Source of the DNA: a virus
DNA length: 64,000 nt
IMG/VR virus record: IMGVR_UViG_3300042402_003740
Span: 28,328-92,327 of that record
Strand: one strand, 5' to 3'
Made by a program: the position numbers and the translations under genes. Shown in pieces: positions 8,170 to 50,852 of the stretch (positions are counted from its first letter, which is position 1; each line of letters begins with the position of its first letter). The notes beneath the pieces were generated by a model. The model saw nothing but the letters and a program-made list of their open reading frames with translations. It did no database searches and had not been told where the DNA came from.

Positions 8170-8172
8170 TCA

Positions 8173-8500
8173 TGGAGTCGGGGGGATTTGCACCCCCGTC
8201 CAGAACCACATCAAAGACAAACTTCTACGGAACCTAGTCCGTGTTCTGTACAGCATCGGGACACGGACATCCCTTTGCAGTTTGCGAATCGTTTAGTTCA
8301 ACAGCCTTACGATTCCTATGGCAGTCTATCCGATGGTTTGGGAGGGGTAGATATCGGAGTCTCTACCCCTCCCTTGCCGCTTCAAGCAGCGAGACGAACT
8401 GTGTTAGCAGTTATTGTGTGGTCGATTTTATACAGAGCCGTTCGACCAACTCTGGTGCGCCGTTTGTCTCCTACTTAGCCTGTCGAATCTACTCGACCCC
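8173..8500 (-). ncRNA. ssrA: tmRNA (transfer-messenger RNA)
   Basis: The 5' end reads GGGGTCGAGTAGATTCGACA, the hallmark start of one-piece tmRNA. The 3' end has a T arm GGGGG-TGCAAAT-CCCCC and the acceptor strand CGACTCC, which pairs with the 5' GGGGTCG; discriminator A. Length is 328 nt. A tag frame ends in Leu-Ala-Ala-stop at 8382-8384. If GAC at 8421-8423, following the usual A-rich stretch, is the resume codon, the tag is DHTITANTVRLAA. The canonical LAA end would send tagged proteins to ClpXP-type proteases. The 5' end abuts the stop codon of gp32 and four tRNAs follow. The resume codon is inferred; the RNA itself is clear. Confidence 0.93.
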
Positions 8501-17220: not shown

Positions 17221-17577
17221 CTAGAATCTTCTTCTTTTTATTCTCTTGCCTATTCTTCGTGACCTTGCTGTTTTTCTGTTTATTGAGGCTTGCTTTCCTC
17301 TTCGCTTTCTAGCAGCCCTACGGAGTTTCATTTTCTTTCTACGAAGAACAGCGGCAGGAATACGACGAATTTTGCCTTTTACAAGAGTGTACCCTTTTCT
17401 TCCTGCGGTCTTGCCTCTCTTTATCTTTCCACCACGAACACGAATAATTCTTCGGACTCTCTCTAGAAGATACTCACAATCTGCCTCTGCTGCTTCTAGA
17501 GTATCTTCAATGATACATTCATCATCTTTTTGAAGAATTTCTGCCTGTTCGAAAATGAAACTCTTGTATGATTTCAT
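17221..17577 (-). CDS. Very basic protein with capsid-targeting-like N-terminus
   Basis: 118 residues. N-terminus MKSYKSFIFEQAEI resembles the T4 internal-protein leader MKTYQEFIAEA. An acidic helix (residues 13-40) is followed by about 75 residues packed with Arg/Lys (RGGKIKRGKTAGRKG..., LRRKKMKLRRAARKRR, RIGKRIKRRR). Such composition suggests a DNA-condensing protein packaged with the genome. Start overlaps the stop of the 765-aa gene as ATGA; last gene of the long late operon. Function is inferred from composition only. Confidence 0.75.
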   Translation of the reverse strand: MKSYKSFIFEQAEILQKDDECIIEDTLEAAEADCEYLLERVRRIIRVRGGKIKRGKTAGRKGYTLVKGKIRRIPAAVLRRKKMKLRRAARKRRGKQASINRKTARSRRIGKRIKRRRF

Positions 17578-19871
17578 CTTTTCAACCGTTTTTCCACTAT
17601 AGATGAAGCGAGTTTTGAGACTTGTTCATTCGTACTACTCTTCTTTCTCCACCCTCCACCTAGCCGTTTGTACAGTTTGGAAGCCCATGCGTTGGAATAT
17701 GCTGATGGGTGGACATCAAAGCCCTTGCCATCGTTTGGACCTGTGATGGTTTCTCCACCGTGTTCCATAGAGGATATGCGTCCCGCCACAAGGTCTTGCA
17801 CTTTGCCCCATAACTCTGGATTTGTTGGCTCGTTTTCTGATGCCTCTCCGAGGATATCGTTAACACTCTTGTCCGAACGCCACATCTGGCAAGACCAGTA
17901 TCGTGCCTTCCACTTTGGACCAACATCATCATCACAAGAGTGACGAGAACGGAAAGCCTTTAGACGGTCGGGATCATCACGCTTGATGCTCATGTTAGGA
18001 TCACCAAACCGAACTTTAACAATATTTCCATTGTCGTTCTTTGTATATACAGCAAACTTCTTCTTTTCTCCTGGTGTACGGAAAGGCTTGTTTAGTGGCT
18101 TGCCCTCACCGTCCTCTTCAGTTATTGTCAATCCTGTTTTATTGTCACGAAGAGCACGCTTTATCATGTCTTGTACAGTTTTGATATCAGCAGAGAACTC
18201 CGCAACAATTCCTCGTTGCTTGTTGTGTTCTTTTTTGTCTCCTGCTTTCTTTGCTTCGTAGGCTAACTTTTCGTGTTTCTTGATGAGGTCTATAAGGTCT
18301 TTGATTGCTTGTTTCATTTCATCAACGGAAACCTCTTTGCCCTCTTGAACCTTGTTAACACCTGTGGATACACGAACTGGCTCTGCTCCACCACCTGGTT
18401 TTCCTTCTCCTTTTTTGCCCATTCCTGCCTCCCTTTGTGCAGAACGCTTGCGACGAACAAACGATGCTATGCCTTCTTTGCCTAATTTTTGTGCTTTTTC
18501 GGGAGATAGGCAAGCGGCATATGCTTCCCCTTCATCCGCATCTCCGCATTTTCCTATTCTTTCACCCTTGCTGTTGTAACGATCCCAACCTGGTGTACCA
18601 TCGGCACTCTGTCGGAACCATTTACCTAGACCAGAGTCACGATAGGTTTCTTCAATCTCTTTTCCTCTGCAATGAGCACGCTGCGAGAAGCCTTTTGGAT
18701 TTTCACAATCAATAGAATCCTTGTACTTCTGTGACCACTTTTCATTCAGAACCTTGTCAACAATGGTCTTGACAGTTTCCACGACCGCAGGATTTTTAGG
18801 AGTTTTCTTTGTGGGTTTCTGCTGTGGTTTCTTCTCTACAGGTTTTCTGTCAGGATTTCTTCTTCTTGGTTGTTCTTGTGTTCCTATACCAGAGAATACC
18901 TTTGCGTCTTGTTCGCTCTTAAAATATCTTACGCCTTTGACATTACCCACAGATCCAGATTGGTTCTTTGCACCAAATCCTGTTTTTGTTTGCCAAACAT
19001 CGCCTGGTTTTGCTTGCATTGCAACCGTTGCCATTCCCTTTTTCTCTTTGTCTGTTGGAGTAGGCGCAGCCGCTCCTGTTGCATCTGTTGCTTTTTTGGT
19101 TTTAGTCGCCCCTGTTACACCTGTGGTTGGTGCAGCGGCTCCGGTACCACCTGAAGGCGATGTAGCCGCCCCTGTAACACCAGTTGTACCAGAGGTGGAT
19201 TTGTCGGTTGTAGGAGCGACAGGCTTGCCTTTACCTTTTTTAGCACCGCTAGATTCCTGTTCTGCTGCGGCCTTTGCCCGGTCACGCATTCCTACCCAAC
19301 CTTTGTCGTTTGCTTCAAGCCATGTTCTGCTCTCTTTTTGAGCGGTATCAACTCTCGCAAGGCGACGATCAAGTGCTTCGATTCTGTCGTAGTCTGGCAT
19401 GGACGATGATTCTGCTTCTGCTTTTCTTGCTTGAAGTCTTTGTCTTGATTGTTCCAAGAACATTGCATGGGCACGCTGATCGTATTTGTTTTCCGATGGC
19501 TTGAACTTTGCAGCATAGTCGGACTCTATGGACTCAAGTTTGCTCATGTTTTCGACGGCAATTTTGCGACGCTCTTTTTGCATATTAAAGCGTGCTTCCA
19601 GTTCTGTTGTGTCTCCCCCTGCTTGCTTTGTCAATTCTATGTCAGAACGAAGAGTCTCCATTTCTGAACGAATCTCTTTTTCATTCGATGCAGCGATCTC
19701 ATGTGCCATTGAGAATCTTTCACGGGCAGCACTAGGGCAATTCTTGTCCAATTGAACACCTGTGACTCTACCAGAGGCATCGCCAACAATCTTTTCTACG
19801 ATAGGCGTTCTTAATAGTCTGCCTACTAGAAACTCTATTTCCTCTATGAGTTCAAGAATTTGTGGTTTCAC
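17574..19871 (-). CDS. Large head/prohead-type protein with coiled coil and linkers, 765 aa
   Basis: Starts at GTG 19871, overlapping the previous stop as GTGA. Residues 1-210 are charged coiled coil. Residues 215-275 are a low-complexity TGVTGA/GTGAAAP linker. Then come a Lys/Pro stretch, a Cys-containing domain (KDSIDCENPKGFSQRAHCRG; RIGKCGDADEGEAYAACLSP) similar to DUF5872-type phage domains, and a second conserved unit FAVYTKNDNGNIVKVRFGDP...FRSRHSCDDDVGPKWKARYW. These two units occur in structural proteins of many large phages. A role in the prohead core or as packaged protein is likely but unproved. No leader resembling the capsid-targeting peptide. Confidence 0.75.
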   Translation of the reverse strand: MKPQILELIEEIEFLVGRLLRTPIVEKIVGDASGRVTGVQLDKNCPSAARERFSMAHEIAASNEKEIRSEMETLRSDIELTKQAGGDTTELEARFNMQKERRKIAVENMSKLESIESDYAAKFKPSENKYDQRAHAMFLEQSRQRLQARKAEAESSSMPDYDRIEALDRRLARVDTAQKESRTWLEANDKGWVGMRDRAKAAAEQESSGAKKGKGKPVAPTTDKSTSGTTGVTGAATSPSGGTGAAAPTTGVTGATKTKKATDATGAAAPTPTDKEKKGMATVAMQAKPGDVWQTKTGFGAKNQSGSVGNVKGVRYFKSEQDAKVFSGIGTQEQPRRRNPDRKPVEKKPQQKPTKKTPKNPAVVETVKTIVDKVLNEKWSQKYKDSIDCENPKGFSQRAHCRGKEIEETYRDSGLGKWFRQSADGTPGWDRYNSKGERIGKCGDADEGEAYAACLSPEKAQKLGKEGIASFVRRKRSAQREAGMGKKGEGKPGGGAEPVRVSTGVNKVQEGKEVSVDEMKQAIKDLIDLIKKHEKLAYEAKKAGDKKEHNKQRGIVAEFSADIKTVQDMIKRALRDNKTGLTITEEDGEGKPLNKPFRTPGEKKKFAVYTKNDNGNIVKVRFGDPNMSIKRDDPDRLKAFRSRHSCDDDVGPKWKARYWSCQMWRSDKSVNDILGEASENEPTNPELWGKVQDLVAGRISSMEHGGETITGPNDGKGFDVHPSAYSNAWASKLYKRLGGGWRKKSSTNEQVSKLASSIVEKRLKR

Positions 19872-20122
19872 TGTCTTCCTTTCAAGTAGTTATGCACAGA
19901 GGAAAGATAATCTGCTGCCTTGGTGATCTTGGACTGTACCCATGCCTCAAGTTCCATATCTGAAGAGAGCATATCCGATATAATACTGGCATGGTCAGAG
20001 ATGTTCTTTAGTTCTCCCTTTGCCATATCTACTTCATCTCCAGGTGCATCACCTGTGGTGCTTGGATTTTCAGTCAGTATTTTGATAATTTGCTCTTGCA
20101 GCCGCTTGTTCTCATCTTGCAT
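19868..20122 (-). CDS. Small conserved myovirus structural-type protein, 84 aa
   Basis: Helical. The C-terminal half ELKNISDHASIISDMLSSDM and LEAWVQSKITKAADYLSSVH resembles a short protein that is conserved in T4-type marine phages near head genes. Start ATG 20122 follows GGAGGG and a CTAAATAAAC late box. The GTG of the 765-aa gene overlaps its stop. Confidence 0.75.
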   Translation of the reverse strand: MQDENKRLQEQIIKILTENPSTTGDAPGDEVDMAKGELKNISDHASIISDMLSSDMELEAWVQSKITKAADYLSSVHNYLKGRQ

Positions 20123-20140
20123 AGGAAGCCCTCCGTGTAT

Positions 20141-20150
20141 GTTTATTTAG
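20141..20150 (-). promoter_or_regulatory. Late promoter-like box (CTAAATAAAC)
   Basis: GCCTAAATAAAC sits 19 bases before the 84-aa structural gene in a 75-base gap that otherwise holds nothing, which makes it one of the better late-promoter candidates. Confidence 0.6.
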
Positions 20151-20197
20151 GCTTTTTGCTAGTGAGGCGAGTTCTGTAATGTATTGGTGAAATGTTT

Positions 20198-20875
20198 TCA
20201 TACTGCTACTTGATCCATTAACCATTGCGTGATGATTCTATCATCGCCGCCAAATTCATCTTTATTGCAAAATATAGTCTTTAGCATTTTAACTGGCTTA
20301 TAGGAGATTATCTCTCTTTGATATGAAAATTGCCCTGCGAGTCTTGGTATGTTTGTATATTTGTCTGGATTCATAAAGAATGAGTTCCGAGAGCGTTCAA
20401 GGTCAGCAATAGCAAGAATATGATAAGACTCTTTGTTTCTGCGATACATCTTACCACCAAAATCTTCCACAAGTTTGGGAAGAGCAGCGAGGTCTACAGT
20501 CCATGAAGAAACTACATTCCTTATGTTCGTATATGTGCCTCCACGGACTATTCCCCTATTTCCGCTAACAGATATATTAAAGTTGCTCTTCATTATGTCC
20601 ACAGGTAAATCAGACATCAAGCGATATGCATATTTGTATGATTTTGGCACACGAAGAATATCAGCGTGTTTTCCTGCTTTTTGTGCTGCAATTAATTTTG
20701 GTAGTTCTTTAACCAAAGCAGCATCTCGCCCTCCAAAGTAGTGCTTTTGGAAAGCCTCCCAAGCATCTTCTTCATCCTTTGTGTTTTTCTCTGGTGGTTG
20801 TACAACATCTGTTCGCTCTGGAGCGAACAGCACATTTCCATAGTCTTCTTTCAACCATCGTTTAAGAGATTTCAT
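20198..20875 (-). CDS. ADP-ribosyltransferase-like protein with capsid-targeting-like leader
   Basis: 225 residues. Leader MKSLKRWLKED resembles the T4 packaged-protein signal. The R-S-E triad of ADP-ribosyltransferases can be placed: Arg85 in YAYRLMS, Ser124 in VVSSWTVD, and Gln186-x-Glu188 in QFSYQREII. QxE instead of ExE is the pattern of C3-like enzymes that modify Asn/Gln-type acceptors, while T4 Alt/ModA have ExE. Would use NAD to modify host proteins right after injection. Overlaps the end of the nuclease-like gene by 14 bases. The family call is by motif spacing and needs a structure-based check. Confidence 0.65.
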   Translation of the reverse strand: MKSLKRWLKEDYGNVLFAPERTDVVQPPEKNTKDEEDAWEAFQKHYFGGRDAALVKELPKLIAAQKAGKHADILRVPKSYKYAYRLMSDLPVDIMKSNFNISVSGNRGIVRGGTYTNIRNVVSSWTVDLAALPKLVEDFGGKMYRRNKESYHILAIADLERSRNSFFMNPDKYTNIPRLAGQFSYQREIISYKPVKMLKTIFCNKDEFGGDDRIITQWLMDQVAV

Positions 20876-21905
20876 CTTTTTCCTTATTTTCGTGCATTAG
20901 GTTCGCATATTTTCCCTGATCTGCGATCCAGTCTTCAATGTCACCCATCTGCTGTCCTGCATCTTTCAGTTTTTTCTTCAACTTTTTCTTTGTCTTTGCT
21001 ATTATTCTAGAAACAGCAGATGCTCCACTTCCAACAAGTTTCTTTACACCCTTGACCAAAGCCGTACTCTCTTCCATAGAGTTTTGTCCATTTAGTGCTT
21101 TGGATAGACCATTAACAGCAGACTCATAATTATCAAGAGAAATAGAAGACTTTGCTCCTGCAAGTTTTAGTCTCCCCTGTACACGATATCCAACAGAACG
21201 ATAGGGCTTACCGCCAGATCCTGCTGGTCCTGGACGCATCTCTATGTCGATGTCTCCCTCAAGCATGGGAACCCCAAGACCCAACACATCATTGCCTGTA
21301 TGGAAGAGTCCCATTCCTCCAATTTGAATGTAATCCACATTCTTCTTCTGATAGTGTTGACGAATCCATTGTGCATTGTATCGTATCTTCTTGTTTGTTG
21401 GAATAATAAGTCCCGCTTTCTTGGCGGCTTCCCAATCCTTGTTCTTTACCTTTAGTGGGAAGCCCAATCCTTCTTCAGTATCGTAAAAAGGATCGCCAAG
21501 AGAAGAGAAGTGGTCCAGGAGTTTGTCAAGATACTTTACAACAGGGATAAGAGCATTAGAGAACATCTTCACATCTTCTTCTTTGATTTTGGTAAAATCA
21601 AAACGGTCTACAAGACGATCAGGGAATGACCCAACGAACCCGTCTGCATCTCGTTCATAGTTAATAGATGTACCGCCCATCTGTGCGTTTCCGTCCATCT
21701 TGATCTCCATGTTAATGGTTTGACCATTGATGGTAAAAGAAGCATCTCCGGATCCAGCAGATGAAAATGCTCCACCAGCACTCTCTATTCTCTTGAAATT
21801 AGGATACTCTTTGGCGAGTCTGTCCATGACAGCCTCTACCTTTTTCTCATAATTCACTCCACCCATTCCTACAGTTTCTGTGATATATTCTTTGAAAAGT
21901 TTCAT
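20862..21905 (-). CDS. PD-(D/E)XK-like protein A with capsid-targeting-like leader
   Basis: 347 residues. Leader MKLFKEYITETV matches the MKxFKxFIxE|A pattern. Residues 47-83 read FSSAGSGDASFTINGQTINM followed by EIKM and AQMGGTS: an Asp (54) followed 13 and 15 residues later by Glu67 and Lys69, as in PD-(D/E)XK nucleases. The middle has HYQKKNVDYIQIGGMGLFHT. The C-terminus is Lys-rich. Paralogue of the next gene upstream (22,042-22,833). AGGAG lies 7 bases before ATG 21905. Probable packaged endonuclease acting on host DNA or a DNA-binding relative (inference). Confidence 0.68.
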   Translation of the reverse strand: MKLFKEYITETVGMGGVNYEKKVEAVMDRLAKEYPNFKRIESAGGAFSSAGSGDASFTINGQTINMEIKMDGNAQMGGTSINYERDADGFVGSFPDRLVDRFDFTKIKEEDVKMFSNALIPVVKYLDKLLDHFSSLGDPFYDTEEGLGFPLKVKNKDWEAAKKAGLIIPTNKKIRYNAQWIRQHYQKKNVDYIQIGGMGLFHTGNDVLGLGVPMLEGDIDIEMRPGPAGSGGKPYRSVGYRVQGRLKLAGAKSSISLDNYESAVNGLSKALNGQNSMEESTALVKGVKKLVGSGASAVSRIIAKTKKKLKKKLKDAGQQMGDIEDWIADQGKYANLMHENKEKDEIS

Positions 21906-22002
21906 CTGTTGCTCCTGAATTGATGTTTATTCAGGAGTATGTAGGCTTGGGCTATTCTATAAAAGGAGGAGATTGCATACCATACCTCCCTGTATGTGTT
22001 TT

Positions 22003-22038
22003 CTAAATCCTATAATATCTAGGATTATTTGGATTTAG
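22003..22038. repeat. Nested inverted repeat between the paralogous genes
   Basis: Outer arms CTAAATCC and GGATTTAG, and an alternative inner hairpin AATCCTA-7-TAGGATT, in the 136-base gap between the two nuclease-like genes. Without a clear U tract it may be a weak terminator or processing site. Confidence 0.5.
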
Positions 22039-22041
22039 AGA

Positions 22042-22833
22042 TCATTTTATAAGATGAGAGAGTGTTTTCACCGCTGATTCGTAGTCATCAAGAGTGTGTT
22101 CCATTTGCACCATGCTGAACTGTATTCTTCCTTGTACTCTTAATCCAACACCACGAACCAAACCATATCTTGAAGGCTTTGATCCAGAAGCACCTGCTCT
22201 GATTTCAACACGAATATTTCCATTCAAAAGAGGAACAGGAAGATGTAGTGGATTTTTACCAGTATGAAACAATCCACATCCTCCTATCTGAATATAGTCT
22301 ACACCTTTTGAAAGATAGTGGTTTCTTATAAAACTAGCGTTTTCTTCAATAAAAGCATTTATTGGTTTTATTAGACCTCTAGAAGTAGCAATGCTCCATG
22401 CCTCTTTTCCCACTACCATTGGAAACCCTTCTATGTTCTGATGGACCTCAAATGGATAAGATGCTTTTAGTTCTCCAATTAGTTTTTCTATTGCGTCTGA
22501 TTTTGAATTCAAGACTGCACGATATATGTCTATCATTTCTGGTTCTATTCCCTCTGACTTTAGGAAAGAAAATCTTTCTTCCTTGGGAAGGGAAGAACGA
22601 TATCTCACAGAGGTTCCTCCCATCTGTGCCTTTTTGTTCATTTTTATTTCAATATAATATTTCTGCCCATTTATTTTTAGAGTGAGATCTCCTGATCCTG
22701 CACTAGAAAAACCTCCACCCACATCCTCTAGAACAGAAAGTTTTGGAAAGTTTTCTGACACCTTTTCACATACGGATCTAACATCTTTTTCATACGCTAA
22801 AGATTTTTGTGTTTGTTTTGTTTTCTCTTCCAT
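22042..22833 (-). CDS. PD-(D/E)XK-like protein B, 263 aa
   Basis: Paralogue of the 347-aa protein downstream: GGGFSSAGSGDLTLKINGQK, IEIKM, AQMGGTSVRYR, VDYIQIGGCGLFHTGKNPLH and VGLRVQGRIQFSM all recur. Asp49, Glu62 and Lys64 fit the D...ExK pattern. Unlike its paralogue, it starts MEEKTKQTQKSLAYEKD, without a capsid-targeting-like leader, and no strong ribosome site precedes ATG 22833. It may act inside the infected cell, or pair with protein A. Confidence 0.68.
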   Translation of the reverse strand: MEEKTKQTQKSLAYEKDVRSVCEKVSENFPKLSVLEDVGGGFSSAGSGDLTLKINGQKYYIEIKMNKKAQMGGTSVRYRSSLPKEERFSFLKSEGIEPEMIDIYRAVLNSKSDAIEKLIGELKASYPFEVHQNIEGFPMVVGKEAWSIATSRGLIKPINAFIEENASFIRNHYLSKGVDYIQIGGCGLFHTGKNPLHLPVPLLNGNIRVEIRAGASGSKPSRYGLVRGVGLRVQGRIQFSMVQMEHTLDDYESAVKTLSHLIK

Positions 22834-22839
22834 TTTGTT

Positions 22840-24465
22840 TCATCCATTTGGATTTCCAAGCATTTGCTTTAGGTGTTTCTTTCCACCTATTGCCCGAACA
22901 TATTGTCCGTTGCCTTTCCACTCTATTTCTTTTCCACGAAGTACTCTACGAACAATAGACTCATCGTCTACGACTGGCGCACCACGGGATATAAGTATGT
23001 CGAGTATTTTTCCGCTTGCTTCGCCATAACTCCCCTGTGTCTTGAGAATGTCTACGGCTTTCTTCAGCACCTGTCGCTTGGCTTCGGCTCCACCATCGGA
23101 ACCAATTGTTGTCATCTTCTTGCCGAAAAGTGTGGTCTTTGAGAGTATAGCCGCATCCACATCATCGGGTTCGTCTGTGTCTATGACATCGGTGATATTG
23201 TTGTCCGCAGGAACAGAGTCGGCATTGGGAAAATCAGGATGACCACCGACAGGAGCATAGGCGGCATTGACGATATCAAAGATGTCTCGCTGAACATCAG
23301 TGTTCTTACGAACCTCTGCGGTTGCCAGAGATTTCCACTGGTCTTTATTTCGCACAACACCACGCCCTGCCTCTGCAATGAAAGTCTTGAATGAAACGAT
23401 GCTCTCGCCTATGACATCATAGATGCGGTAGCCCGGATACTTGCGCTTTAGTTCTGCAAATATTCTGTCAAGTCCACTACTAGAGAATTTTGCCCCGTCT
23501 TCGCTTGTGGCACTAATGACCTTGCGCTGGTGGTCAATTCTTCCCTGCACAACAGGAGTAACAGAGCGTTCAATCTTCAGCAACTCTGGAAAGACATCCT
23601 CATGGGTATCACGAACAGGGTCTTTTGGACTGCGTATTGTTACACGGGTCATGCCTTTTGATGGCTTTATTTCTGATGAAGCAATCCACAGTTCAGGAAT
23701 CTTGCCCCCTGTTGATACTCCCCATACCTTTTGACGGATACGCTCCATCTCCTGCTCTTGGTCTTTTTCATATGGTGAAACGGAGTGTCCGTAGTCAAGA
23801 TATGCACCCGCAGTATCAACCATGTCTCCAACAATATCAGGGTGCATTTTCAATACATCACGCACCACTTGTTCTGTTTCCCGTTTTGTCTTCTTTACTG
23901 TATCCCTAGTGGATTTCTTGCGGGCTTCGCTCTCACGACTCCATCCAAGCGCATCGGTAATAATATCCTTGTGATCGAATGCAAGGCGTGGAAGACGCTT
24001 CACAGAAATCCACTTTGCATCAACAGCATCATCCTGTCCACGCACACGCTGACCCATCTCTGCGGGAAGAGTGATGGTGTATGCATACGAGATTGACCAT
24101 GCTGTTTTCGTATCACGGGGATCTCGACCGCCTCCCTTGTATATTCCAACCGAACGCAATTTCGAGCGCATCTCTGCTGGAATCTTCAACCCTGTCTCTT
24201 CCTCTAGTTCACGGAGTGCAGCATCGGCAATGGATTCTGTCTGTCCTGCCTTCCACTCTCCTCCTGCCTTTGCGGTGGTGTTTACGAATCCACCTGGTAT
24301 TGCCCACTTTCCGCCTTCGGTCTTGCCAGGTTTACGCTTGATGAGCAGTACCTCAAGTCCTCCATCTTTTGCAGGACGGAATACCACAAGATCTACCGTT
24401 GGATTTGCTCCTGTATAGCGGTAGCCCTCTTTGGCTTCGGTGATGAAGTGTCTAAAGTCTATCAT
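22840..24465 (-). CDS. Nudix hydrolase fused to a duplicated cargo domain
   Basis: 541 residues from ATG 24465, chosen because it overlaps the previous stop as ATGA and is preceded by AGGAAA; an upstream start would run through the neighbour. Order: leader MIDFRHFITEAKEG; Nudix fold (residues 20-180) with box residues Glu77, Arg85-Glu86-Leu87, Glu89-Glu90 and Gly92; a linker domain; then at residues 356-366 a second leader-like peptide IVSFKTFIAEA; then a domain homologous to the separate 185-aa protein. Looks like a fusion of two packaged proteins with the second leader kept inside. A Nudix enzyme could degrade nucleotide derivatives (for example ADP-ribose, NADH or capped RNA); the substrate is unknown. 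Confidence 0.82.
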   Translation of the reverse strand: MIDFRHFITEAKEGYRYTGANPTVDLVVFRPAKDGGLEVLLIKRKPGKTEGGKWAIPGGFVNTTAKAGGEWKAGQTESIADAALRELEEETGLKIPAEMRSKLRSVGIYKGGGRDPRDTKTAWSISYAYTITLPAEMGQRVRGQDDAVDAKWISVKRLPRLAFDHKDIITDALGWSRESEARKKSTRDTVKKTKRETEQVVRDVLKMHPDIVGDMVDTAGAYLDYGHSVSPYEKDQEQEMERIRQKVWGVSTGGKIPELWIASSEIKPSKGMTRVTIRSPKDPVRDTHEDVFPELLKIERSVTPVVQGRIDHQRKVISATSEDGAKFSSSGLDRIFAELKRKYPGYRIYDVIGESIVSFKTFIAEAGRGVVRNKDQWKSLATAEVRKNTDVQRDIFDIVNAAYAPVGGHPDFPNADSVPADNNITDVIDTDEPDDVDAAILSKTTLFGKKMTTIGSDGGAEAKRQVLKKAVDILKTQGSYGEASGKILDILISRGAPVVDDESIVRRVLRGKEIEWKGNGQYVRAIGGKKHLKQMLGNPNG

Positions 24466-25019
24466 AGTGGGTTTCCTACCATCATCTTTGTCATCCGTTT
24501 TCCACCAGAGAAGGTTCGGGTATACCAGCCATCGCCTTCCCATCCATCCATCTTGCCGTGCCATTCGAACTCTACCTTTGGGTCACTCTTGACGATCTTC
24601 TCTACACGCTTTGGATCGTTGATAGGCTTTACTCCCATGCCCATGAGTATCTGTGCGGGTCTTCCTGATATTTCGGTATAGTTCCCACGAACAGAGAGTA
24701 TATCCTTTACCCGCTTCATCATCTGACGCTTCGCTTCCTGCGAACCGTCTGTTCCCATGCCGTGTATAATTCTACCTTTACCCCTTTGCTGTGTGAGTAT
24801 GACAGCATCAATGGCAGAATCATCATCGGTATCTATGACATCAACATCATCGGTTCCCACAGGATCAGAAGAGGTAAACTGCCTATGTCCCGTAGGAAAC
24901 TGTGAGTATACAGACTGTAGAATCTCTCCAATCTGCTTGGCAACATCGGTGTTTCCCTTTACCTCGTTGTTCGAAAGGGTAGACCATTTTCCCTTGATGT
25001 AGCCTTTAAAACTCTTCAT
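24462..25019 (-). CDS. Packaged-protein candidate sharing the Nudix-fusion C-terminal domain
   Basis: 185 residues. Leader MKSFKGYIKGKWS. The body shares with the C-terminus of the Nudix fusion: VIDTDD-x-IDAVIL, GTDGSQEAKRQMMKRVKDIL, a GNYTEISGRPAQILMGMGV stretch and the end YTRTFSGGKRMTKMMVGNPL. Strand/helix alternation with a conserved Gly-Arg segment recalls acyltransferase (GNAT-like) folds, but no acetyl-CoA loop can be named. Overlaps both neighbours by four bases. Confidence 0.72.
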   Translation of the reverse strand: MKSFKGYIKGKWSTLSNNEVKGNTDVAKQIGEILQSVYSQFPTGHRQFTSSDPVGTDDVDVIDTDDDSAIDAVILTQQRGKGRIIHGMGTDGSQEAKRQMMKRVKDILSVRGNYTEISGRPAQILMGMGVKPINDPKRVEKIVKSDPKVEFEWHGKMDGWEGDGWYTRTFSGGKRMTKMMVGNPL

Positions 25020-26422
25020 TCAATTCTTTCCATTTTTTCAGGCATATCCGAACCCAAGATGTCTTGTAGTTCATCAAATACCTCGTTGTACTTCTTTACA
25101 AGTTCAACCCATGTTTGGTTTACATATGCCTTTGCAGGAGTTTTTGTACCGATCTTTACAACCCGTGTAACTTCTGTTTCTCTTCCAACAGAGTTTTTTG
25201 TTCCTAATTTGTTTGCAAACCATTCAGAAAAGATACAGCCATCATCTGTAGGCATGGTGTAAACAATGGGTACATTCATGCCCTCCATTATTTCTTTGTA
25301 TGCATAATCCATTGTTCTAAGTATGGAGCGGACGATACTCTTTTTCTCGGATTTTGATGCGGCTTTGAAACCATTTGCCTGTTTGAGAATGAACTTAAGT
25401 TCTGGTGATGGGAGTACCGATACCGATCCACCAAACAAACCTTCTTGTGTTGCGAAATTGGCTGCTACTGCTGGTTCTGCTGCCCAACTCTGTATGGCTC
25501 TGTTCGCCTTGTACTCTACAGGAACACCAACATATGTTTTTGCCTTCTTTCCACTACCGATTTCCAATAGGTCTTTGGATTTTAGCAATCTATCCAAGGG
25601 TAGGATTCTTTTTGCAACACTACCGTCAACTCCTATTCCACGCCATACCACACTAACAGTTGGTTCGAATTCGTTTGGATAGTCTTTGACACATTTCTTG
25701 ATAAACTCGAAATCTGCAACCATCTTGTTGTCGGCGTGTCCATCACTGTACATTGCATCTCCACCTACCCAGTCGCTAACACTCATCTCTATTTCGTCTT
25801 CTCTTTTGGTGTTCTGTTCACGGCTTCTGTATTTTCCCTGCTCTATTCCAAATACTAGACGCTGAAACACCTTTGTGCATGGGTTTTTGTTGAATTCTTT
25901 TTCCTTCTCTCTTTTCTCTTTGATTTTACCCTTTTGGCCTTCAAGTTTCTCAATCGAAGTCTCTATGGACTTTCTCATCTTTGTATTCTCTTTTTGCCAC
26001 TTGGCTAGACCTGTCTTTTTTATCTGATTGACTCTGCTTGCAGGAAAGTCCAGAAGAGATCCAGACCTGTCGTCAAATCCCAACTGGCGCACATTATCCT
26101 TAAAGTTGCCAATAAGCGGATAGACTGCTGGTTCCAATCCAATTCCTTCATCAAAGAACAGTCTCACGAGGTCTAGTCCTGACTTCATTACACCTCTAAA
26201 CCACTTACGCTCTTCCTCCTTGGTCATGTCAGAGAACCAAGGAGGAAGATCTCCAATCTTTTTGGATGCCTCTTGGAGTTCTCCAATGGCTTCACGAAGA
26301 GAGCCGCTCCGCTCCCCTGGCGGTTCGCAACCGCAACGGGCAATGGCATCCCGCACGGATTCTCCCGTGTCGGTATCCACTCCACGAAGAACATCAAGAA
26401 CTATGGCTCTCCATGACCGCAT
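25016..26422 (-). CDS. ADP-ribosyltransferase-like protein, 468 aa
   Basis: The C-terminal half (residues 250-440) carries an R-S-E triad: Arg261 in VSVVWRGIG, Ser312 in RAIQSWAAEPAVAANFAT, and Glu415-x-Glu417 in VGRETEVTRVV. ExE fits an arginine-modifying enzyme such as T4 Alt. Residues 135-180 are a Lys/Glu coiled coil. The N-terminus MRSWRAIVLDVLRG only loosely resembles the capsid-targeting leader. Likely to modify host RNA polymerase, translation factors or other targets on entry, by analogy with Alt. Overlaps the next gene (ATGA). Confidence 0.75.
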   Translation of the reverse strand: MRSWRAIVLDVLRGVDTDTGESVRDAIARCGCEPPGERSGSLREAIGELQEASKKIGDLPPWFSDMTKEEERKWFRGVMKSGLDLVRLFFDEGIGLEPAVYPLIGNFKDNVRQLGFDDRSGSLLDFPASRVNQIKKTGLAKWQKENTKMRKSIETSIEKLEGQKGKIKEKREKEKEFNKNPCTKVFQRLVFGIEQGKYRSREQNTKREDEIEMSVSDWVGGDAMYSDGHADNKMVADFEFIKKCVKDYPNEFEPTVSVVWRGIGVDGSVAKRILPLDRLLKSKDLLEIGSGKKAKTYVGVPVEYKANRAIQSWAAEPAVAANFATQEGLFGGSVSVLPSPELKFILKQANGFKAASKSEKKSIVRSILRTMDYAYKEIMEGMNVPIVYTMPTDDGCIFSEWFANKLGTKNSVGRETEVTRVVKIGTKTPAKAYVNQTWVELVKKYNEVFDELQDILGSDMPEKMERIE

Positions 26423-26425
26423 GGG

Positions 26426-26815
26426 TTATCCTCCGTAGGCTACGCCCCGCACAAAGAAGTGGTCTTCGTGACTGGTGAATCCAAAGCACTCCCGTGCATA
26501 CTCTATGACAACTGCTGGATCAAACTTCTTGCAGGAGTACAGGTCGAGGGTAATGAAATGGGTGGGTTCAATCGAATGGATCTGTATGCCACTCTCTATG
26601 AGGGGAACCCATCCGCTCACTCCTGCCTTCTCGGGATACACTTCAACACCGTTTTGTGTTGGTGCATGGATAACCACAGGCTGACTCATGCGTGTCATGC
26701 CGATTCGGTCCACCAGACGCTCAAGAAAGCGATAGGTCAACTCCATGTCATCGGCTGTGCCGGGCTTGCACCCGTACATATCAAGGTAATATGAATACCC
26801 GAAAGGTTTTTTCAT
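26426..26815 (-). CDS. speD: S-adenosylmethionine decarboxylase-like protein
   Basis: 129 residues, the size of bacterial SpeD. YYLDMYGC, the segment KAGVSGWVPLIESGIQIHSI and FITLDLYSCKKFDP correspond to the SpeD fold. Glu74-Ser75 is the self-cleavage site where Ser becomes the pyruvoyl cofactor; His80 and Cys95 match the processing and donor residues. It would supply decarboxylated AdoMet for spermidine, a polyamine that can neutralise packaged DNA. Start overlaps the preceding stop (ATGA), so it is part of the cargo operon. Confidence 0.85.
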   Translation of the reverse strand: MKKPFGYSYYLDMYGCKPGTADDMELTYRFLERLVDRIGMTRMSQPVVIHAPTQNGVEVYPEKAGVSGWVPLIESGIQIHSIEPTHFITLDLYSCKKFDPAVVIEYARECFGFTSHEDHFFVRGVAYGG

Positions 26816-27645
26816 TCGAGTGGACTCCCATCCATGTAGAGGTTTCTACAGACCCAGCCGTAGTCGCCTTCTTCCATCTTCTTCTGGGCAGTGTTCATTC
26901 TGTCTTTCATCATTCCGAGACGCTTGTCCTGTAGGAACTTGATGTGGTCTTCAACCATTTTGATGCTTTTCTTCCAACTGTTCATGCATTGGATTGCCTC
27001 ACGCTTTTCGGATGCGCTTTCGTGCATAGTCTCCTCGTATCCCATAAAGGGTCTTGGCTTCTTGTTGCAATCCTTGCCTTTGCATGGCTTTGGCTTTGGT
27101 TTGCCCTTTCCACCCTTCATAGGCTCGACCACGGCATCGTCACCGTACATACGGGAATCTGTTTCGTGGAGAGGGGCTTCTGATTCTTTCAGGGAGTTTC
27201 CTTCCTGAACGGCACGGTATGCCCTTGCCAGTGATTCCAAAAGGTCGGCTTCGGTGCGGTCGGTCTGTACAGAATTTGCAGGAGCGGGTGGAACCCCGCC
27301 TCCAAGAATGGTCTGCACCATCTGTGCTGTTTCGCTCTTTGCTATGCGCTCAAATTCGTTGTTTGTCTCCATCGCTCTACCTTCCTTTATTCCTAGTTTA
27401 TTTAGTGCTGCTTCCCGTTGTCCTATCCCTGCGAGTGCCTCTCTTGGCGACTTGAAGTGTCCTACAGGGACCTGTGAATCGTCTGGAACTCCACGCCCAC
27501 TGGTGTCGCCCTTGTAGAGCAGGAACGCTCCAGGACTAGGCTCATGGAGAAAGTACCAGTTCTTCCCAGAACGGGTCTTCCAGCCCATAACAACACCCAT
27601 GCCCTGGTTTAGTCCTGCAATAACTGATTTTTGCCATTTATTCAT
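26812..27645 (-). CDS. Unrecognised protein of the cargo operon, 277 aa
   Basis: N-terminus MNKWQKSVIAGLNQG is basic and amphipathic. Residues 20-75 form a small beta-rich domain (GKNWYFLHEPSPGAFLLYKG). Then a variable charged region with a KGGKGKPKPKPCKGKDCNKK stretch, and a helical, Lys-rich C-terminus ending CRNLYMDGSPLE. Several LxE/LhE-type sites (LLESL, LKESEA, LHETD, MHESA) could be cut by the prohead protease. No function assigned. Confidence 0.7.
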   Translation of the reverse strand: MNKWQKSVIAGLNQGMGVVMGWKTRSGKNWYFLHEPSPGAFLLYKGDTSGRGVPDDSQVPVGHFKSPREALAGIGQREAALNKLGIKEGRAMETNNEFERIAKSETAQMVQTILGGGVPPAPANSVQTDRTEADLLESLARAYRAVQEGNSLKESEAPLHETDSRMYGDDAVVEPMKGGKGKPKPKPCKGKDCNKKPRPFMGYEETMHESASEKREAIQCMNSWKKSIKMVEDHIKFLQDKRLGMMKDRMNTAQKKMEEGDYGWVCRNLYMDGSPLE

Positions 27646-27646
27646 T

Positions 27647-28621
27647 TCATTTTACTCCGTATTGCTTGTCTATTGATGCCCATTCACCCTTGCAGAAGTC
27701 TACGACTGCCTGTATGTAGGCGGTAATCTCGTTCGGGGTGATCTTGCCCATAGAGGGGTTGAAGCCGCTGCCTTTGCCCAGGCGACCCACACGCTCCATC
27801 TTGCCGATGCTCTTCTTGAAAGCCCTGGCAATGGCATCAACACGGGCAGGATCGAATTGCTCAGAAGTGCCGTCGTTCCTGCCGTAGTACTGGTTTGACC
27901 CGTTCTGTAGACCCGAGAGCACGGACATGACCATCTCTAGGCGGCTCATTGCCATGTCGCCGCTCTTCCAGTCTTTCAAGACCTCTTGTGCATAGACAAG
28001 CCACTCCTTGCGGTTCCTGAAACTCTCTGGCATCATGCGAAAGTGCTTCTGTGCCATTGTCTCGGGCTTGCCTGGTTTCTTCTCGTTTCCCCCAGCCTCG
28101 TCCAGTTCGACCGATTCTCCTACAAACTTCTTGCCCCGACCGCTCTTGAGGAATCCGTGTAGCCATGCCTGTGGATCTTTGCTGCCTGGATAGGTCTGTG
28201 GCAGTGGTTTACCGTGCAGTTCTCCGGTGATGCCCCCAAAGTAGTCTTCGTATTCCATAAAACCCACCTTTTTGCCACCCTTCAGGATGTCATAGTGGGT
28301 TGTGGACTGTGTGCCGTCCTCTGTTTTTTTCTTTTCCACCTTGGTTTTCTTTAGAGAATACTCCCCGACACCTTCGTGCAACCCAAGGGATTCCTTCACC
28401 ACCTGTATCCCCTTGTAACGGCTCCGCACCAATTCTGCACCTGTAAGAACATCCACAAGATCCTCATAGTGGTAGTCTGTTGCAACAGCCTCGCTTGAAT
28501 AGGGTCCCGCTACCTTCATCTTGCCACCAGACTTGTACACGGCATAGTACCCTTCAGGGTCAACCTTGCCTATTCCTCTGGCGGCTTCGTCTAATCTTCT
28601 AATATCCTTGAATCGCTTCAT
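27647..28621 (-). CDS. Packaged-protein candidate, 324 aa
   Basis: Leader MKRFKDIRRLDEAARG ends in LDE|A, a T4 gp21-type protease site; a second VELDEAGG occurs at about residue 180. The N-terminal third has a GYYAVYKSGGKMKVAGPYSS domain of the kind that reads sequence context in phage structural proteins. The middle YDILKGGKKVGFMEYEDYFG and the helical C-terminus are unassigned. Start overlaps the end of the ADP-ribosyltransferase gene upstream by four bases. Confidence 0.7.
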   Translation of the reverse strand: MKRFKDIRRLDEAARGIGKVDPEGYYAVYKSGGKMKVAGPYSSEAVATDYHYEDLVDVLTGAELVRSRYKGIQVVKESLGLHEGVGEYSLKKTKVEKKKTEDGTQSTTHYDILKGGKKVGFMEYEDYFGGITGELHGKPLPQTYPGSKDPQAWLHGFLKSGRGKKFVGESVELDEAGGNEKKPGKPETMAQKHFRMMPESFRNRKEWLVYAQEVLKDWKSGDMAMSRLEMVMSVLSGLQNGSNQYYGRNDGTSEQFDPARVDAIARAFKKSIGKMERVGRLGKGSGFNPSMGKITPNEITAYIQAVVDFCKGEWASIDKQYGVK

Positions 28622-29487
28622 CTCTGCTTCTCCTCTAAATATTGGCTGTTGTAATCTTCGAATTTACGCAGTACCGCCTCTCTGCCGTCAAAAACCTGTA
28701 GTTTTTGCTCTGGTGTAAGCAGCCGCCAGGCACCTGGTGACATTAGTGTTTCCCTACCATCGGTTGTTTTTTCTGCTAGTGGAACATAGCAGCGGCACTG
28801 TATTGGGGTCTTCTCTAATCTTACAATTTCAGACTCTGCGGGGTTTCCAAAGTGGACAAGATTAAGGCTTTCGTCCGGGGATATCTTGTACTCTAGAACA
28901 AAGTGTATGCGTTGCTGTTTCATCTGGTCAGACCACCAACTGTCTGTGACCCCTGTAAAGTCGCCTGTTGCAAATCCTAGTGCCACTCTCTGTTCTGTCG
29001 TCCATGACTGTGCAACCGACCGGGCCTCGTAGCGTAGGGTTCCCTCTGCACACTGTAGTGGTCTTTTGCCCCTGTACAGGGTTGTGATTCTTTCAAATTT
29101 GAATGCATTGGCAAATCTCTTCACTCCAAACCCTTCGCCACGGTACACATTCCCGCTGTATCGTAGCCACGATCCAGTCTTTCCACACCCCTGTATCATT
29201 CTCTTTATACGAAGAACAAGATCTTCAGGGGTGTAGTCCCGTTGAGCCTTGAATCCCATCATCCACTTGTTCATGGTGTCTGCAAGCCCTGCAATCTCTT
29301 CGTTCTTTGCCTCTTTTGCTGCCCTCTCTATCCATTGCCAGCCTTTGCCTCTAAAATGGTCAATAGGAGAACCCTGAAACAGAGGAGGATTTGACCCGCC
29401 CAAGAGATGACACAACCCACGGGAGAAATCTATCTCTCCTCCACTCTTTGACTCTAGTATCTCTATGAATTGGCGGTAGCGTTTCAT
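28618..29487 (-). CDS. ADP-ribosyltransferase-like protein with capsid-targeting-like leader, 289 aa
   Basis: Leader MKRYRQFIEILES resembles the T4 packaged-protein signal, with ILE|S as possible cut site. R-S-E triad: Arg116 in GNVYRGEGFG, Ser161 in ARSVAQSWTTEQRVALGFAT, and Glu218-x-Glu220 in NPAESEIVRL. The spacing and the S-W-T plus hydrophobic helix are shared with the 468-aa enzyme downstream. Third member of the ART set in this operon; probably injected to modify host proteins. Tail is Lys/Glu-rich. Confidence 0.75.
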   Translation of the reverse strand: MKRYRQFIEILESKSGGEIDFSRGLCHLLGGSNPPLFQGSPIDHFRGKGWQWIERAAKEAKNEEIAGLADTMNKWMMGFKAQRDYTPEDLVLRIKRMIQGCGKTGSWLRYSGNVYRGEGFGVKRFANAFKFERITTLYRGKRPLQCAEGTLRYEARSVAQSWTTEQRVALGFATGDFTGVTDSWWSDQMKQQRIHFVLEYKISPDESLNLVHFGNPAESEIVRLEKTPIQCRCYVPLAEKTTDGRETLMSPGAWRLLTPEQKLQVFDGREAVLRKFEDYNSQYLEEKQR

Positions 29488-29488
29488 A

Positions 29489-29938
29489 TTAGTCGTCTAC
29501 AGGTTCGTCGTGACCAGAGTGTGGATTGTACCGGGTCAGAGGGGTTCTGCGCCGTGACCGCTCACGCTCACGCTCGTCTCTTTCCCGCTCCCGCTGCCCC
29601 CGATCCCGCTCCTCGGCATCACGGCGGCTCTGGGCTTCACGCCCTGGTCGCTTCTTTCCCTCTACCCAATCGCTTGCATCGCTCCAGTTATCGAAATAGC
29701 GGAATTCGTCCTCCCACCGTGCACGGTATCGGGTTCCCCCACCTGTCTCTACCTCGTCAACCGAGCCGCTTCTCTGCCTTTCCTTCCCCTGGCGGTCTGC
29801 TGACTCCTCACCAGAGGTCTGTGCCCTCTTTGCCTTTTCGATTCCTAACTTGCGTCCAACCCGTATGGCTGTGTCACGGACTATGCCCTCTTTCAGAGTC
29901 TTGTCTACAGTTCTTCTAAATTCGGTGTAGTCTTTCAT
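29489..29938 (-). CDS. Charged protein with capsid-targeting-like N-terminus, 149 aa
   Basis: ATG 29938 is chosen because AGGAG lies 6 bases upstream and it gives the leader MKDYTEFRRTVDKTLKEG; a longer frame adds 17 unlikely residues. The body is Arg/Glu/Asp-rich (RDRGQRERERDERERERSRR) and largely disordered, with one short aromatic motif FRYFDNWSDASDWVEG. First leader-bearing gene of the operon. Role unknown; the repeat-like RE/ER run could bind DNA or RNA. Confidence 0.65.
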   Translation of the reverse strand: MKDYTEFRRTVDKTLKEGIVRDTAIRVGRKLGIEKAKRAQTSGEESADRQGKERQRSGSVDEVETGGGTRYRARWEDEFRYFDNWSDASDWVEGKKRPGREAQSRRDAEERDRGQRERERDERERERSRRRTPLTRYNPHSGHDEPVDD

Positions 29939-31283: not shown

Positions 31284-33629
31284 ATGCGAAACACGAAGAA
31301 TACCGTTAATACCGTCCGTGAGGCTACCGCTCGACTTCTCGCCACCGAGAACATCACGGTCATCGAAGACCCGAAGGCTCCTTCGGCGTACTTCGACCTC
31401 AAGTCTCGTACCCTTGGCCTTCCTGTGTGGAAGGACATCACGCAGGAAATGTACGATATGCTTGTTGGTCACGAAGTCGGCCATGCCCTCTTCACGCCGA
31501 ACGGAAACGGCGGTTGGGTTGAGTCTGCAAAGCGCATCGCTGCGGATGCGGGTTTCGCTGGCGACCGTGAGGCGGAAGCCGCTGCACAGTCGTTCCTCAA
31601 TGTTGTTGAGGATGCCCGTATCGAGCGTCTCATCAAGGAACGCTACCCCGGTCTGCGTCGTGACTTCTTCACTGCGTACACGGAGTTTGCGAAGCGTGAC
31701 ATCTTCAAGATTGGTGGCCGTCCCCTCAGCGGTCTTGGTCTTGCCGACCGCCTGAACATCCACTTCAAGATCGGCTTTACGCAGCCTGTGCCGTTCTCCC
31801 CTTCGGAGCGCCAGTTCGTGGAGCGCATGGAGACGGCTGTGACTTGGGAAGAGGTTGTTGCGATTGCGAACGATCTTTTCGAGTTTGAGTCGAATCCGCA
31901 GGGCAATCAGGGACAGGGCAGCACCCCGTCGAACCCCGGCGAGGGTGAAGAGGGCGAAGAGGGTTCGGCTTCGGCTTCGGGTAAGGGTGAGGGCAACGAG
32001 ATGGGTCAGTCGGGCAAGGGCAAGGCTGACGACCAGACCAGTGGCGAGTCGGGTACTGGTGATGCTGATGGCGAGGGCGAATCGCAGGGCGAATCGCAGG
32101 GCGAATCGCAGTCTGAGGGTACGGACGCTTCGGGTAATGATGGCGACTCGGAGTCGCAGTCGGATGGTGACACTGACATCAACGATACCCGTGATGGTTC
32201 AACCACGGAGCGCACTCGGGGTCATGGCGTGAACACGGCCCCCGTGAAGCCCCGTACCGCACAGACTGCGGGTTCGCTTGACAAGGCTTCGTCTGATCTT
32301 CGTGACCAGAATGCCCGTGGTCGCAACTACCTCTACATTCCTCGGGCGGTGAAGCCTGAAGGCTTCGTCATCCCGTTCGGGGAATTCATTGGTGCGTGTC
32401 GCCAGTGGGAAGCAAGCGGTCTGAAGAATCCTACCTACGGCAGCGACCCGAAGATCCGCAAGCGTTCGATTGAGGCGGTGGACAAGCAGATTCGTGACCT
32501 GGTCGAGGACACCCGTGGTTCGATCCAGGCGTTTGTCCGTGAGTTTGAGATGCTGAAGACTGCGGACGAACACCGCCGCACTGTGGAGTCGAAGAGCGGT
32601 CGCCTTGACATGGATCAGGCGTGGAAGTACCGCATCTCGGAAGACCTCTTCAAGGTTGCTACGACGATGCGTGACGGCAAGAACCACGGCTTTGTTATGT
32701 TTATTGACTGGTCGGGTTCGATGCAGCCGAACATGGAGCAGACGATGCGCCAGTTGTACATCCTCTTCCAGTTCTGCAAGAAGGTTGGCATCCCGTTTGA
32801 TGTCTACGCCTTCGGTATCGGCCTCACGGATCGCTCGATGTTCCCGTCGCTTGAAGAGACGGGACGCAAGGCGAATCGCCTGGTGCTTGACGACAAGCGC
32901 AACGAAGTTCAGCCTGATGTGGAACTCCTCCACATCATGTCGAGCCGTGCGAACGCTCGGGATCTTCAGGATGCGTTCCGCTACTGCCTCTGCGCTACGA
33001 GTTACGGATACGGCGACTACCCGCCCGTGACCCTTGGCGGCTCGACTCCGCTTGACTCGACCGTTGTTGTCGCTCGGGACATTGTGAACGAGTTCCGCAA
33101 GGGGACGAAGGTGCAGATCGTCAACACCGTGTTCCTCACGGACGGCGATGCGACCGATGGCCTCTGCAACTACGGAACGAAGGGACACCAGCACTACGCT
33201 GGTCCGACGATTCTTCGTGACGGCCACCGTGAGTGGGCTTCGGAGAATGCAATGTACAGCGGTGGTACTGCTCTCCTGCTCCAGTGGTTCAAGGCGAACA
33301 CGGGAGCAAATCTTGTGGGCATCTTTGTGGCGGGTCGCTTCGGTCATGCGACTCACCACTTCGACCCGTCGATGAAGCAGGAAGACCGTGCGCTTGCGGA
33401 GAAGCAGTTCAAGAGCGACGGTTGGTGTTCGGTGAAGGGTCTTGGGTTTGACCAGTACTTTGTCCTCCGTGGCAATGTGGTCGATACCGAGAAGGCGATG
33501 GACGAATTCGAGCAGCGTGACGGTGGCACGATGACCGCCACGCAGATCAAGAATGCGTACATGAAGGCGGTCGAGAGCCGTAATGGTGCCCGTGGCATGA
33601 TCCACCGTTTCGTCAAGACGGTGGCCTAA
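31284..33629 (+). CDS. CobT-like VWA protein with HExxH metallopeptidase motif
   Basis: 781 residues. HEVGHALF (His63-Glu64...His67) is a zinc-peptidase motif. Residues 215-320 are an acidic Gly/Ser/Glu/Asp linker with repeated GESQ. The C-terminal half is a von Willebrand A domain with the MIDAS motif FIDWSGSM near residue 475 and FLTDGDATDG near 620. VWA partners of MoxR/CobS AAA+ ATPases use this design, and such an ATPase follows 2.4 kb downstream. Phages often label the pair cobS/cobT, but a chelatase role is doubtful; remodelling or cleavage of a protein complex is more likely. Codon use is GC-rich (gcg, ctc, tcg). Confidence 0.85.
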   Translation: MRNTKNTVNTVREATARLLATENITVIEDPKAPSAYFDLKSRTLGLPVWKDITQEMYDMLVGHEVGHALFTPNGNGGWVESAKRIAADAGFAGDREAEAAAQSFLNVVEDARIERLIKERYPGLRRDFFTAYTEFAKRDIFKIGGRPLSGLGLADRLNIHFKIGFTQPVPFSPSERQFVERMETAVTWEEVVAIANDLFEFESNPQGNQGQGSTPSNPGEGEEGEEGSASASGKGEGNEMGQSGKGKADDQTSGESGTGDADGEGESQGESQGESQSEGTDASGNDGDSESQSDGDTDINDTRDGSTTERTRGHGVNTAPVKPRTAQTAGSLDKASSDLRDQNARGRNYLYIPRAVKPEGFVIPFGEFIGACRQWEASGLKNPTYGSDPKIRKRSIEAVDKQIRDLVEDTRGSIQAFVREFEMLKTADEHRRTVESKSGRLDMDQAWKYRISEDLFKVATTMRDGKNHGFVMFIDWSGSMQPNMEQTMRQLYILFQFCKKVGIPFDVYAFGIGLTDRSMFPSLEETGRKANRLVLDDKRNEVQPDVELLHIMSSRANARDLQDAFRYCLCATSYGYGDYPPVTLGGSTPLDSTVVVARDIVNEFRKGTKVQIVNTVFLTDGDATDGLCNYGTKGHQHYAGPTILRDGHREWASENAMYSGGTALLLQWFKANTGANLVGIFVAGRFGHATHHFDPSMKQEDRALAEKQFKSDGWCSVKGLGFDQYFVLRGNVVDTEKAMDEFEQRDGGTMTATQIKNAYMKAVESRNGARGMIHRFVKTVA

Positions 33630-50048: not shown

Positions 50049-50121
50049 GCCCCTATAACTCAGCAGGTAGAGTAGCAGACTTTTAATCTGACAGTCCCAG
50101 GTTCGATCCCTGGTGGGGGCA
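50049..50121 (+). tRNA. tRNA-Lys (anticodon TTT)
   Basis: Acceptor GCCCCTA/TGGGGGC (one T-G pair), loop CTTTTAA, T arm CCAGG-TTCGATC-CCTGG, discriminator A. First tRNA after the promoter. Confidence 0.93.
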
Positions 50122-50143
50122 TTGGAAATAGATAGTGTGATAG

Positions 50144-50216
50144 GCTCCCTTAACTCAGCGGCTAGAGTGCTTCCTTTACACGGAAGAAGTCGATGGTTCG
50201 AATCCGTCAGGGAGTA
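50144..50216 (+). tRNA. tRNA-Val (anticodon TAC)
   Basis: Acceptor GCTCCCT/AGGGAGT, anticodon stem CTTCC/GGAAG with loop TTTACAC, T arm GATGG-TTCGAAT-CCGTC. Confidence 0.93.
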
Positions 50217-50232
50217 TTGATAGTTTGATTTT

Positions 50233-50303: not shown

Positions 50304-50344
50304 TTGAAAGCAGACCAATCCTACATACTAATAGGAGGTCGTCT

Positions 50345-50746: not shown

Positions 50747-50755
50747 TTAGATTTT

Positions 50756-50826: not shown

Positions 50827-50852
50827 TTAAAGGAAAATGGAAAAATTAGACT

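Follow-up and report, generated by a model that had tools for sequence, protein, structure and literature searches.

The 64,000-nucleotide stretch of DNA analysed here, referred to as the window (bases 28328-92327 of the 92,327-base linear virus record IMGVR_UViG_3300042402_003740), encodes a set of proteins that begin with a common 10-residue tag and continue into diverse bodies. The tag precedes many unrelated bodies in other viruses, is retained by orthologs in related phages, and is linked to the gp21 region in other loci. It resembles the capsid targeting sequence (CTS) of T4 internal proteins (IPs), and these genes very probably encode a modular, CTS-addressed cargo set that is delivered with the DNA; packaging, cleavage, injection and cargo role are inferred from sequence. 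The phage is a T4-like myovirus, as judged from a T4_baseplate protein at 61612-62355 (PF12322, 7.5e-62) and from best matches in cyanophages and related marine phages.

The initial annotation had listed nine genes sharing this N-terminus. A position-specific scoring matrix (PSSM) was trained on 52 tags taken from outside sequences only, scored on positions 2-11 and applied to the 541 open reading frame (ORF) stretches of the whole 92-kb record. Its top seven stretches were seven of the nine genes, which are referred to below by their start positions or names (scores in Table 1), and the best score in the genome was that of the gene at 58329. The same PSSM gave 24.5 for T4 IPIII and IPII and 11.6 for IPI, compared to maxima of 0.3 in ten dinucleotide shuffles and -1.6 in phage P-SSP7. 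A start codon is present at all nine N-termini, those at 24465, 29938, and 58329 being internal ATGs within longer mechanical ORFs. The remaining two genes did not hold up as well. MKDYTEFRRT (29938) scored -3.4, beneath several unrelated stretches of the same genome, and is unsupported, while MKRFKDIRRLDE (28621) scored too low to be among the listed matches and is weak, with an out-of-register LDE/A (a slash marks the predicted cut) that can be compared with TITE/A in T4 IPI. The nine-gene observation was thus confirmed in slightly trimmed form, and the earlier figure of about ten tagged proteins was somewhat high, since seven are profile-supported and one further copy is internal. This internal tag, VSFKTFIAEA in the NUDIX ORF, and a 29-codon remnant, MKTFHQYITE at 20201, are additions to the initial list.

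Aromatic residues occupy positions 4 and 7 in 17577, 21905, 24465, 25019, 29487, and 58329, and in 20875 these two residues are L and W, respectively. Supported tags carry I or L at position 8 and E at position 10 (G in 25019), and the [IL]xE cleavage motif occurs in six of the seven profile-supported genes, in 29487 as ILE at 12. The bodies had been described as otherwise unrelated, which is mostly the case, apart from nuc347 and nuc263, dom185 and the C terminus of the NUDIX protein (37% identity), and a weak similarity between p289 and p468.

The 52 outside tags came from a search of IMG/VR viral contigs with a strict DNA-level pattern, MKx[FY]Kx[FY]IxEA. It matched at least 120 stretches, versus 2 for the reversed pattern over the whole viral collection. 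Among the matches listed, 120 proteins longer than 60 amino acids (aa) fell by their bodies into 52 unrelated families, three of which match the PHROG annotation "internal head protein" and one "internal virion protein." The 120 loci contain 238 ORFs scoring at least 8, with two or more in 67 loci, and the tags lie on a single strand in all 67 of these. A chance origin of the tag was rejected in view of the shuffles and the reversed pattern, and whole-gene paralogy in view of the 52 body families.

Tags were found in relatives as well. In G002, a relative whose DNA polymerase is 82% identical, the cluster is syntenic. NUDIX orthologs matched by body start with MIDFRHFITE/A in the window, MKPFSQYIIE/A in G002, and MKSFKQFITE/N in G013, and L375 also has a tagged ortholog; in a search for NUDIX relatives whose patterns included tag residues, the tagged fraction is not an unbiased count. 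The nuc347 bodies of the window and G002 are 96% identical behind MKLFKEYITE/T and MKTFKSYLAE/S, respectively, and a 261-aa protein begins with MKTYRRFITE/L in G001 and MKTYKTFISE/L in a body-matched ortholog. G002 and L375 encode a tagged HAD-like phosphatase starting with MKSFSRYITELASPRKS and MKPFSQYITELASPRKS, and HAD-like starts in relatives read MKSFSRYITE/L and MKPFSQYITE/L; the window record holds only the 29-codon remnant, whose start is similar. In the body-matched orthologs compared, the class of residue is conserved at positions 4, 7, 8, and 10. Nevertheless, three closely related pairs show more divergence in the 30-base tag block than in the body, with 9/30 versus 84/750, 4/30 versus 8/540, and 4/30 versus 13/510 differences (p 0.006, 0.002, and 0.011). 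The first 39 nucleotides of two G013 genes are identical, after which the genes diverge, which is the expected look of a tag copied between genes; this relative has eleven ORFs scoring at least 10 in 20 kb, plus gp21.

Tags or tag-like motifs also occur at candidate domain junctions. The internal tag of the NUDIX protein, VSFKTFIAE/A, corresponds to VLFKDFLVE/A or VSFKDFLVE/A in relatives, where approximately 160 adjacent residues are missing. In the 277-aa protein, PLHE/TDSRMYGDD aligns with the starts of short proteins in relatives, MKTYSQ(L/F)IAE/TDSRMYGDD, and in the 324-aa protein an internal ELDE/A lies, by eye, near the position of DITE/A in L375. Since [IL]xE will often arise by chance, the three examples are no more than suggestive of a separation of fused cargo by cleavage at former tag sites.

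To examine the surroundings of the tag from the side of the head genes, 80 loci were chosen by the gp21 protease (Peptidase_S77) alone and 854 kb of their DNA was scored. All nine tag-like starts scoring at least 7 lay on the gp21 strand and no more than 3 kb upstream of this gene, as did 15 of the 18 scoring at least 5. This interval holds 12% of the ORF stretches, which gives p values of about 6e-9 and 1e-11, respectively, if the starts are independent; several of them look homologous to each other, and the p values are therefore optimistic. No tag-like start was present in T7-like control loci (327 kb), and the strict pattern gave 5 tags in gp21-selected versus 0 in T7-like records, too few alone for significance. 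Peptidase_S77 was encoded in 11 of 26 tag-selected records of at least 20 kb, including all three above 140 kb. In other loci, the late-promoter-like motif CTAAATA was found at most 60 bases upstream of 13/99 tagged versus 28/1052 other ORFs (p 1.5e-5), and control motifs were not significant in this upstream test. The window operon has few CTAAATA sites. The gp23 proteins of relatives contain L-x-E sites, as read by eye.

Two of the tagged proteins are firmly assigned by domain profiles. The 58329 protein is predicted to belong to the S-adenosylmethionine (SAM) lyase family PF23780 (37.1 bits versus a cut-off of 28, 3.6e-9) and to PF11697/DUF3293 (36.7 bits versus a cut-off of 25, 6.4e-9). 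A marine-virus homolog of this protein starts with MKTFKEFLEES, and the homolog in Campylobacter phage CP220 (L370:5920-6549) begins with MKFKDYIKSLRD, which is tag-like but shifted. The 24465 protein carries a predicted NUDIX domain (PF00293, 59.1 bits versus a cut-off of 21.1), for which the nearest NCBIfam models, NadM-type and ADP-ribose-responsive Nudix, all stay below their cut-offs. The C-terminal domain of this protein and the 25019 protein adopt a GNAT fold in an AlphaFold2 model based on four sequences (predicted local distance difference test [pLDDT], 80.2; predicted template modeling [TM] score, 0.79). In the PDB, the listed matches of the model belong to the GNAT acetyltransferase family (best E, 1.6e-4; TM, about 0.4-0.66); neither protein region has a Pfam GNAT match, and the relationship to GNAT is therefore distant. 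The 118-aa protein (17577) is basic like T4 IPs (35% K+R, net charge +29), and its positional counterpart in G002, matched by position and basic tail, begins with MKSFTEIKQYLKE.

Other assignments are tentative. The 21905 protein might be nuclease-like, according to a motif read by eye. p289 and p468 are putative ADP-ribosyltransferase-like proteins, in which an R and an SW can be aligned; R116, S161, and W162 of p289 are invariant in a four-sequence alignment. Searches of Pfam, PHROG, NCBIfam, and PDB gave no match for p289, and a PDB profile search with the putative ADP-ribosyltransferases returned chance matches only. AlphaFold2 run on p289 without an alignment gave an unusable model (pLDDT, 36), and no fold is therefore claimed. 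In relatives, the cargo includes GNAT above the Pfam cut-off and HAD below it. Among the matches listed, the wider tagged set comprises adenylate kinase, ADPrib_exo_Tox (PF03496), S-AdoMet_lyase, RNA ligase, ExoX-like_C, glucosaminidase, and cytidylyltransferase, and three cargo types (SAM-lyase, NUDIX, and GNAT) are found repeatedly, in lineages that are separate.

In T4 IPIII, the N-terminal ten residues are sufficient for loading into the head; targeting depends on residues 4 and 7 of the CTS and processing on residues 8 and 10, and an Asp in position 10 stops processing with targeting unaffected (PMC9026906). T-even internal proteins are diverse and have the CTS alone in common (PMC3012670, PMC9026906), and T4 injects IPI and Alt, both of which are active in the host (PMC9026906). 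Our literature search found no printed copy of the T4 tag MKTYQEFIAEA. Like the T4 IPs, the window tags have aromatic residues at 4 and 7, I or L at 8, and E at 10, and one tag stands before diverse bodies. Unlike T4, which has three IPs, the window phage has seven profile-supported tags and one internal tag, and a relative has about eleven; multi-domain enzyme cargo, junction tags, and DNA-level swapping are further differences, and the phages are distant from T4. T4 Alt is itself a packaged and injected ADP-ribosyltransferase processed by gp21, and PF03496 is among the tagged proteins elsewhere, whereas the ADP-ribosyltransferase identity of p289 and p468 is unconfirmed by profile or structure. 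On the basis of fusions and gene neighbourhoods, passages of PMC9503650 propose the packaging of NUDIX and ADP-ribosyltransferase proteins into the heads of myoviruses, and the tag would supply the address for this idea. Injected enzymes are likewise proposed for polyvalent proteins and MuF-fused effectors in passages of PMC5512222 and PMC9503650, which make no mention of a CTS-type tag outside T4. Packaging is deduced there from head-protein fusions and gene neighbourhood, whereas a cleavable CTS-type tag on mostly separate polypeptides is proposed here.

The interpretation of the tags as CTSs is well supported by the match to T4 positions, the excess over the reversed pattern, and the 52 body families, as well as by tag genes adjacent to gp21, tag retention in orthologs, and the late-promoter-like motif. 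According to this model, the N-terminal 10-mers would serve for capsid targeting in the same way as the tags of T4 IPs. At a late stage of infection, the tagged proteins would bind the prohead core through residues 4 and 7 and become enclosed; a gp21-type prohead protease would cut after [IL]xE, freeing the enzymes inside the head, from which they would be injected together with the DNA. The tag is a swappable module that unrelated genes gain, exchange, or become fused to, and the cargo might serve early takeover or counter-defence, e.g., with ADP-ribose/NAD, SAM, protein acetylation, or nucleic acids as targets. A broader proposal, towards which we lean slightly, is that in many distant T4-like phages a short recombining 5′ tag brings arbitrary enzymes and polyproteins into the head, that the protease releases them and also separates fused cargo by cutting at internal tags, and that some ten enzymes per virion would thereby be delivered before phage expression. 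The principle of the tag has been described for T-even phages, whereas its scale here, the enzymatic cargo, the swapping, and the tags at junctions look new.

Some of these observations could be read differently. Tag-like starts cluster just upstream of gp21, in the region occupied by gp67 and gp68 in T4, and the basic protein of 118 aa is similar to an internal protein that condenses DNA, as would be expected if the tag were a general core-binding or scaffold-processing motif and the cargo consisted of structural core parts consumed in assembly rather than injected effectors. We consider this improbable, as NUDIX, GNAT, SAM-lyase-like, and HAD cargo would be odd for scaffolding, adenylate kinase, ADP-ribosyltransferase, and lytic enzymes also occur in the wider set, and T4 IPI and Alt do act in the host. 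Even less weight can be given to a cytoplasmic docking or regulatory peptide unrelated to capsids (e.g., for membrane, replisome, or host-protein binding). Tagged lytic enzymes could indeed work elsewhere, but the CTS match, the gp21 linkage, the internal-head-protein PHROGs, and the late-promoter-like motif would then all be coincidental. The paralogous bodies of nuc347/nuc263 and dom185/NUDIX C terminus, together with the recent tag copies in G013, might suggest that the tag genes arose from one ancestor by duplication and fusion and that the tag is a mere relic. This is scarcely credible given the 52 unrelated body families among the matches listed, and the residue class kept at positions 4, 7, 8, and 10 despite the faster divergence of the tag block argues that the tag is in use.

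Several results, in addition to the optimistic p values mentioned above, weigh against a packaged and injected cargo. MKSFKGYIKG (25019) lacks the cleavable E and has G instead, and this protein would thus be targeted but perhaps not cut. A packaged nuclease would have to be kept inactive. The operon genes SpeD, nuc263, p468, p765, and p84 have no clear start tag, and their products may work inside the infected cell instead of travelling in the head. The strict tag is missing in 46/50 gp21-bearing records, which indicates that a large tagged set is a trait of some lineages and not of all T4-like phages. Finally, the record is a fragment without a head cluster and contains no gp21 (Peptidase_S77). 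Contig L372 overlaps its right end (gp26 region 99.6% identical) and adds further proteins that look by eye like baseplate parts; head genes were found in neither the record nor L372, which reaches baseplate-type genes only. Peptidase_S77 is encoded by relatives G005, G007, and G013, the last of which also has the tagged NUDIX cluster, and we infer from these relatives that the window phage has gp21.

If the tags are CTSs, they would provide a sequence-level predictor of injected proteins among uncharacterised phage proteins. A tag scan would list candidate early takeover or counter-defence proteins in uncultured T4-like phages, and many of the 52 body families among the matches listed are without an assigned function. 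The tag would thus point experimenters to proteins worth testing at DNA entry, and it suggests a route for the exchange of such proteins between phages.

Table 1. Tagged genes of the window, tag remnants, and neighbouring genes (window coordinates)
Feature	Start or motif	Position	Strand	Evidence
Tagged basic protein, 118 aa	MKSYKSFIFE/Q	17221..17577	-	PSSM 18.9
p765, 765 aa	SIDCENPKGFSQRAHC motif	17574-19871	-	phrog_7595 at residues 586-664
Tag remnant opening 29-codon ORF	MKTFHQYITE	20172..20201	-	
Tagged protein, 225 aa, uncharacterised body	MKSLKRWLKE/D	20198..20875	-	PSSM 3.3, above all shuffles
Tagged nuc347, nuclease-like (tentative), 347 aa	MKLFKEYITE/T	20862..21905	-	PSSM 18.9; D-x-ExK by eye
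nuc263, untagged paralog of nuc347 (43% identical)		22042..22833	-	
Tagged NUDIX hydrolase (predicted) with second, GNAT-fold (modelled) domain	MIDFRHFITE/A	22840..24465	-	PSSM 14.0; PF00293 6e-16
Internal tag, NUDIX/second-domain junction	VSFKTFIAE/A	23371..23400	-	score 25.8
dom185, 185 aa, GNAT-fold (modelled), paralog of NUDIX protein C-terminal domain	MKSFKGYIKG	24462..25019	-	PSSM 12.8
SpeD (SAM decarboxylase), untagged		26426-26815	-	
277-aa protein, internal motif	PLHE/TDSRMYGDD	26812..27645	-	alignment
324-aa protein, weak IPI-like out-of-register tag	MKRFKDIRRLDE/A	27647..28621	-	homology to L375 ORF
Tagged p289, putative ADP-ribosyltransferase-like (R...SW), 289 aa	MKRYRQFIEILE/S	28618..29487	-	PSSM 6.2
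Tagged SAM-lyase/DUF3293-like protein (predicted), 195 aa	MDTFKSFISE/A	58329..58916	+	PSSM 23.1

The G002 homolog of the 765-aa protein has a GTG start and a weakly tag-like N terminus, VKTINEQITE (score 5.2). The phage encodes two enzymes that would be expected to use up SAM, the untagged SAM decarboxylase and the best-tagged protein, which is SAM-lyase-like. PADLOC gave no match. A transfer-messenger RNA (tmRNA) gene (window 8170-8500, minus strand; tag ANTVRLAA; Rfam RF00023) lies beside four tRNAs, and a tmRNA is likewise annotated in the T4-like Methylophilales phage Melnitz (MZ577096), in which tag-like starts occur at 12203 and 21306. Twelve tRNA genes are interspersed with small ORFs at 50049-58996 on the plus strand, and the tagged SAM-lyase-like gene lies between two of these tRNAs. 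Also on the plus strand, a protein that looks by eye to be of the vWA/CobT type is encoded near a MoxR-like AAA ATPase (31284-33629 and 36049-37317).

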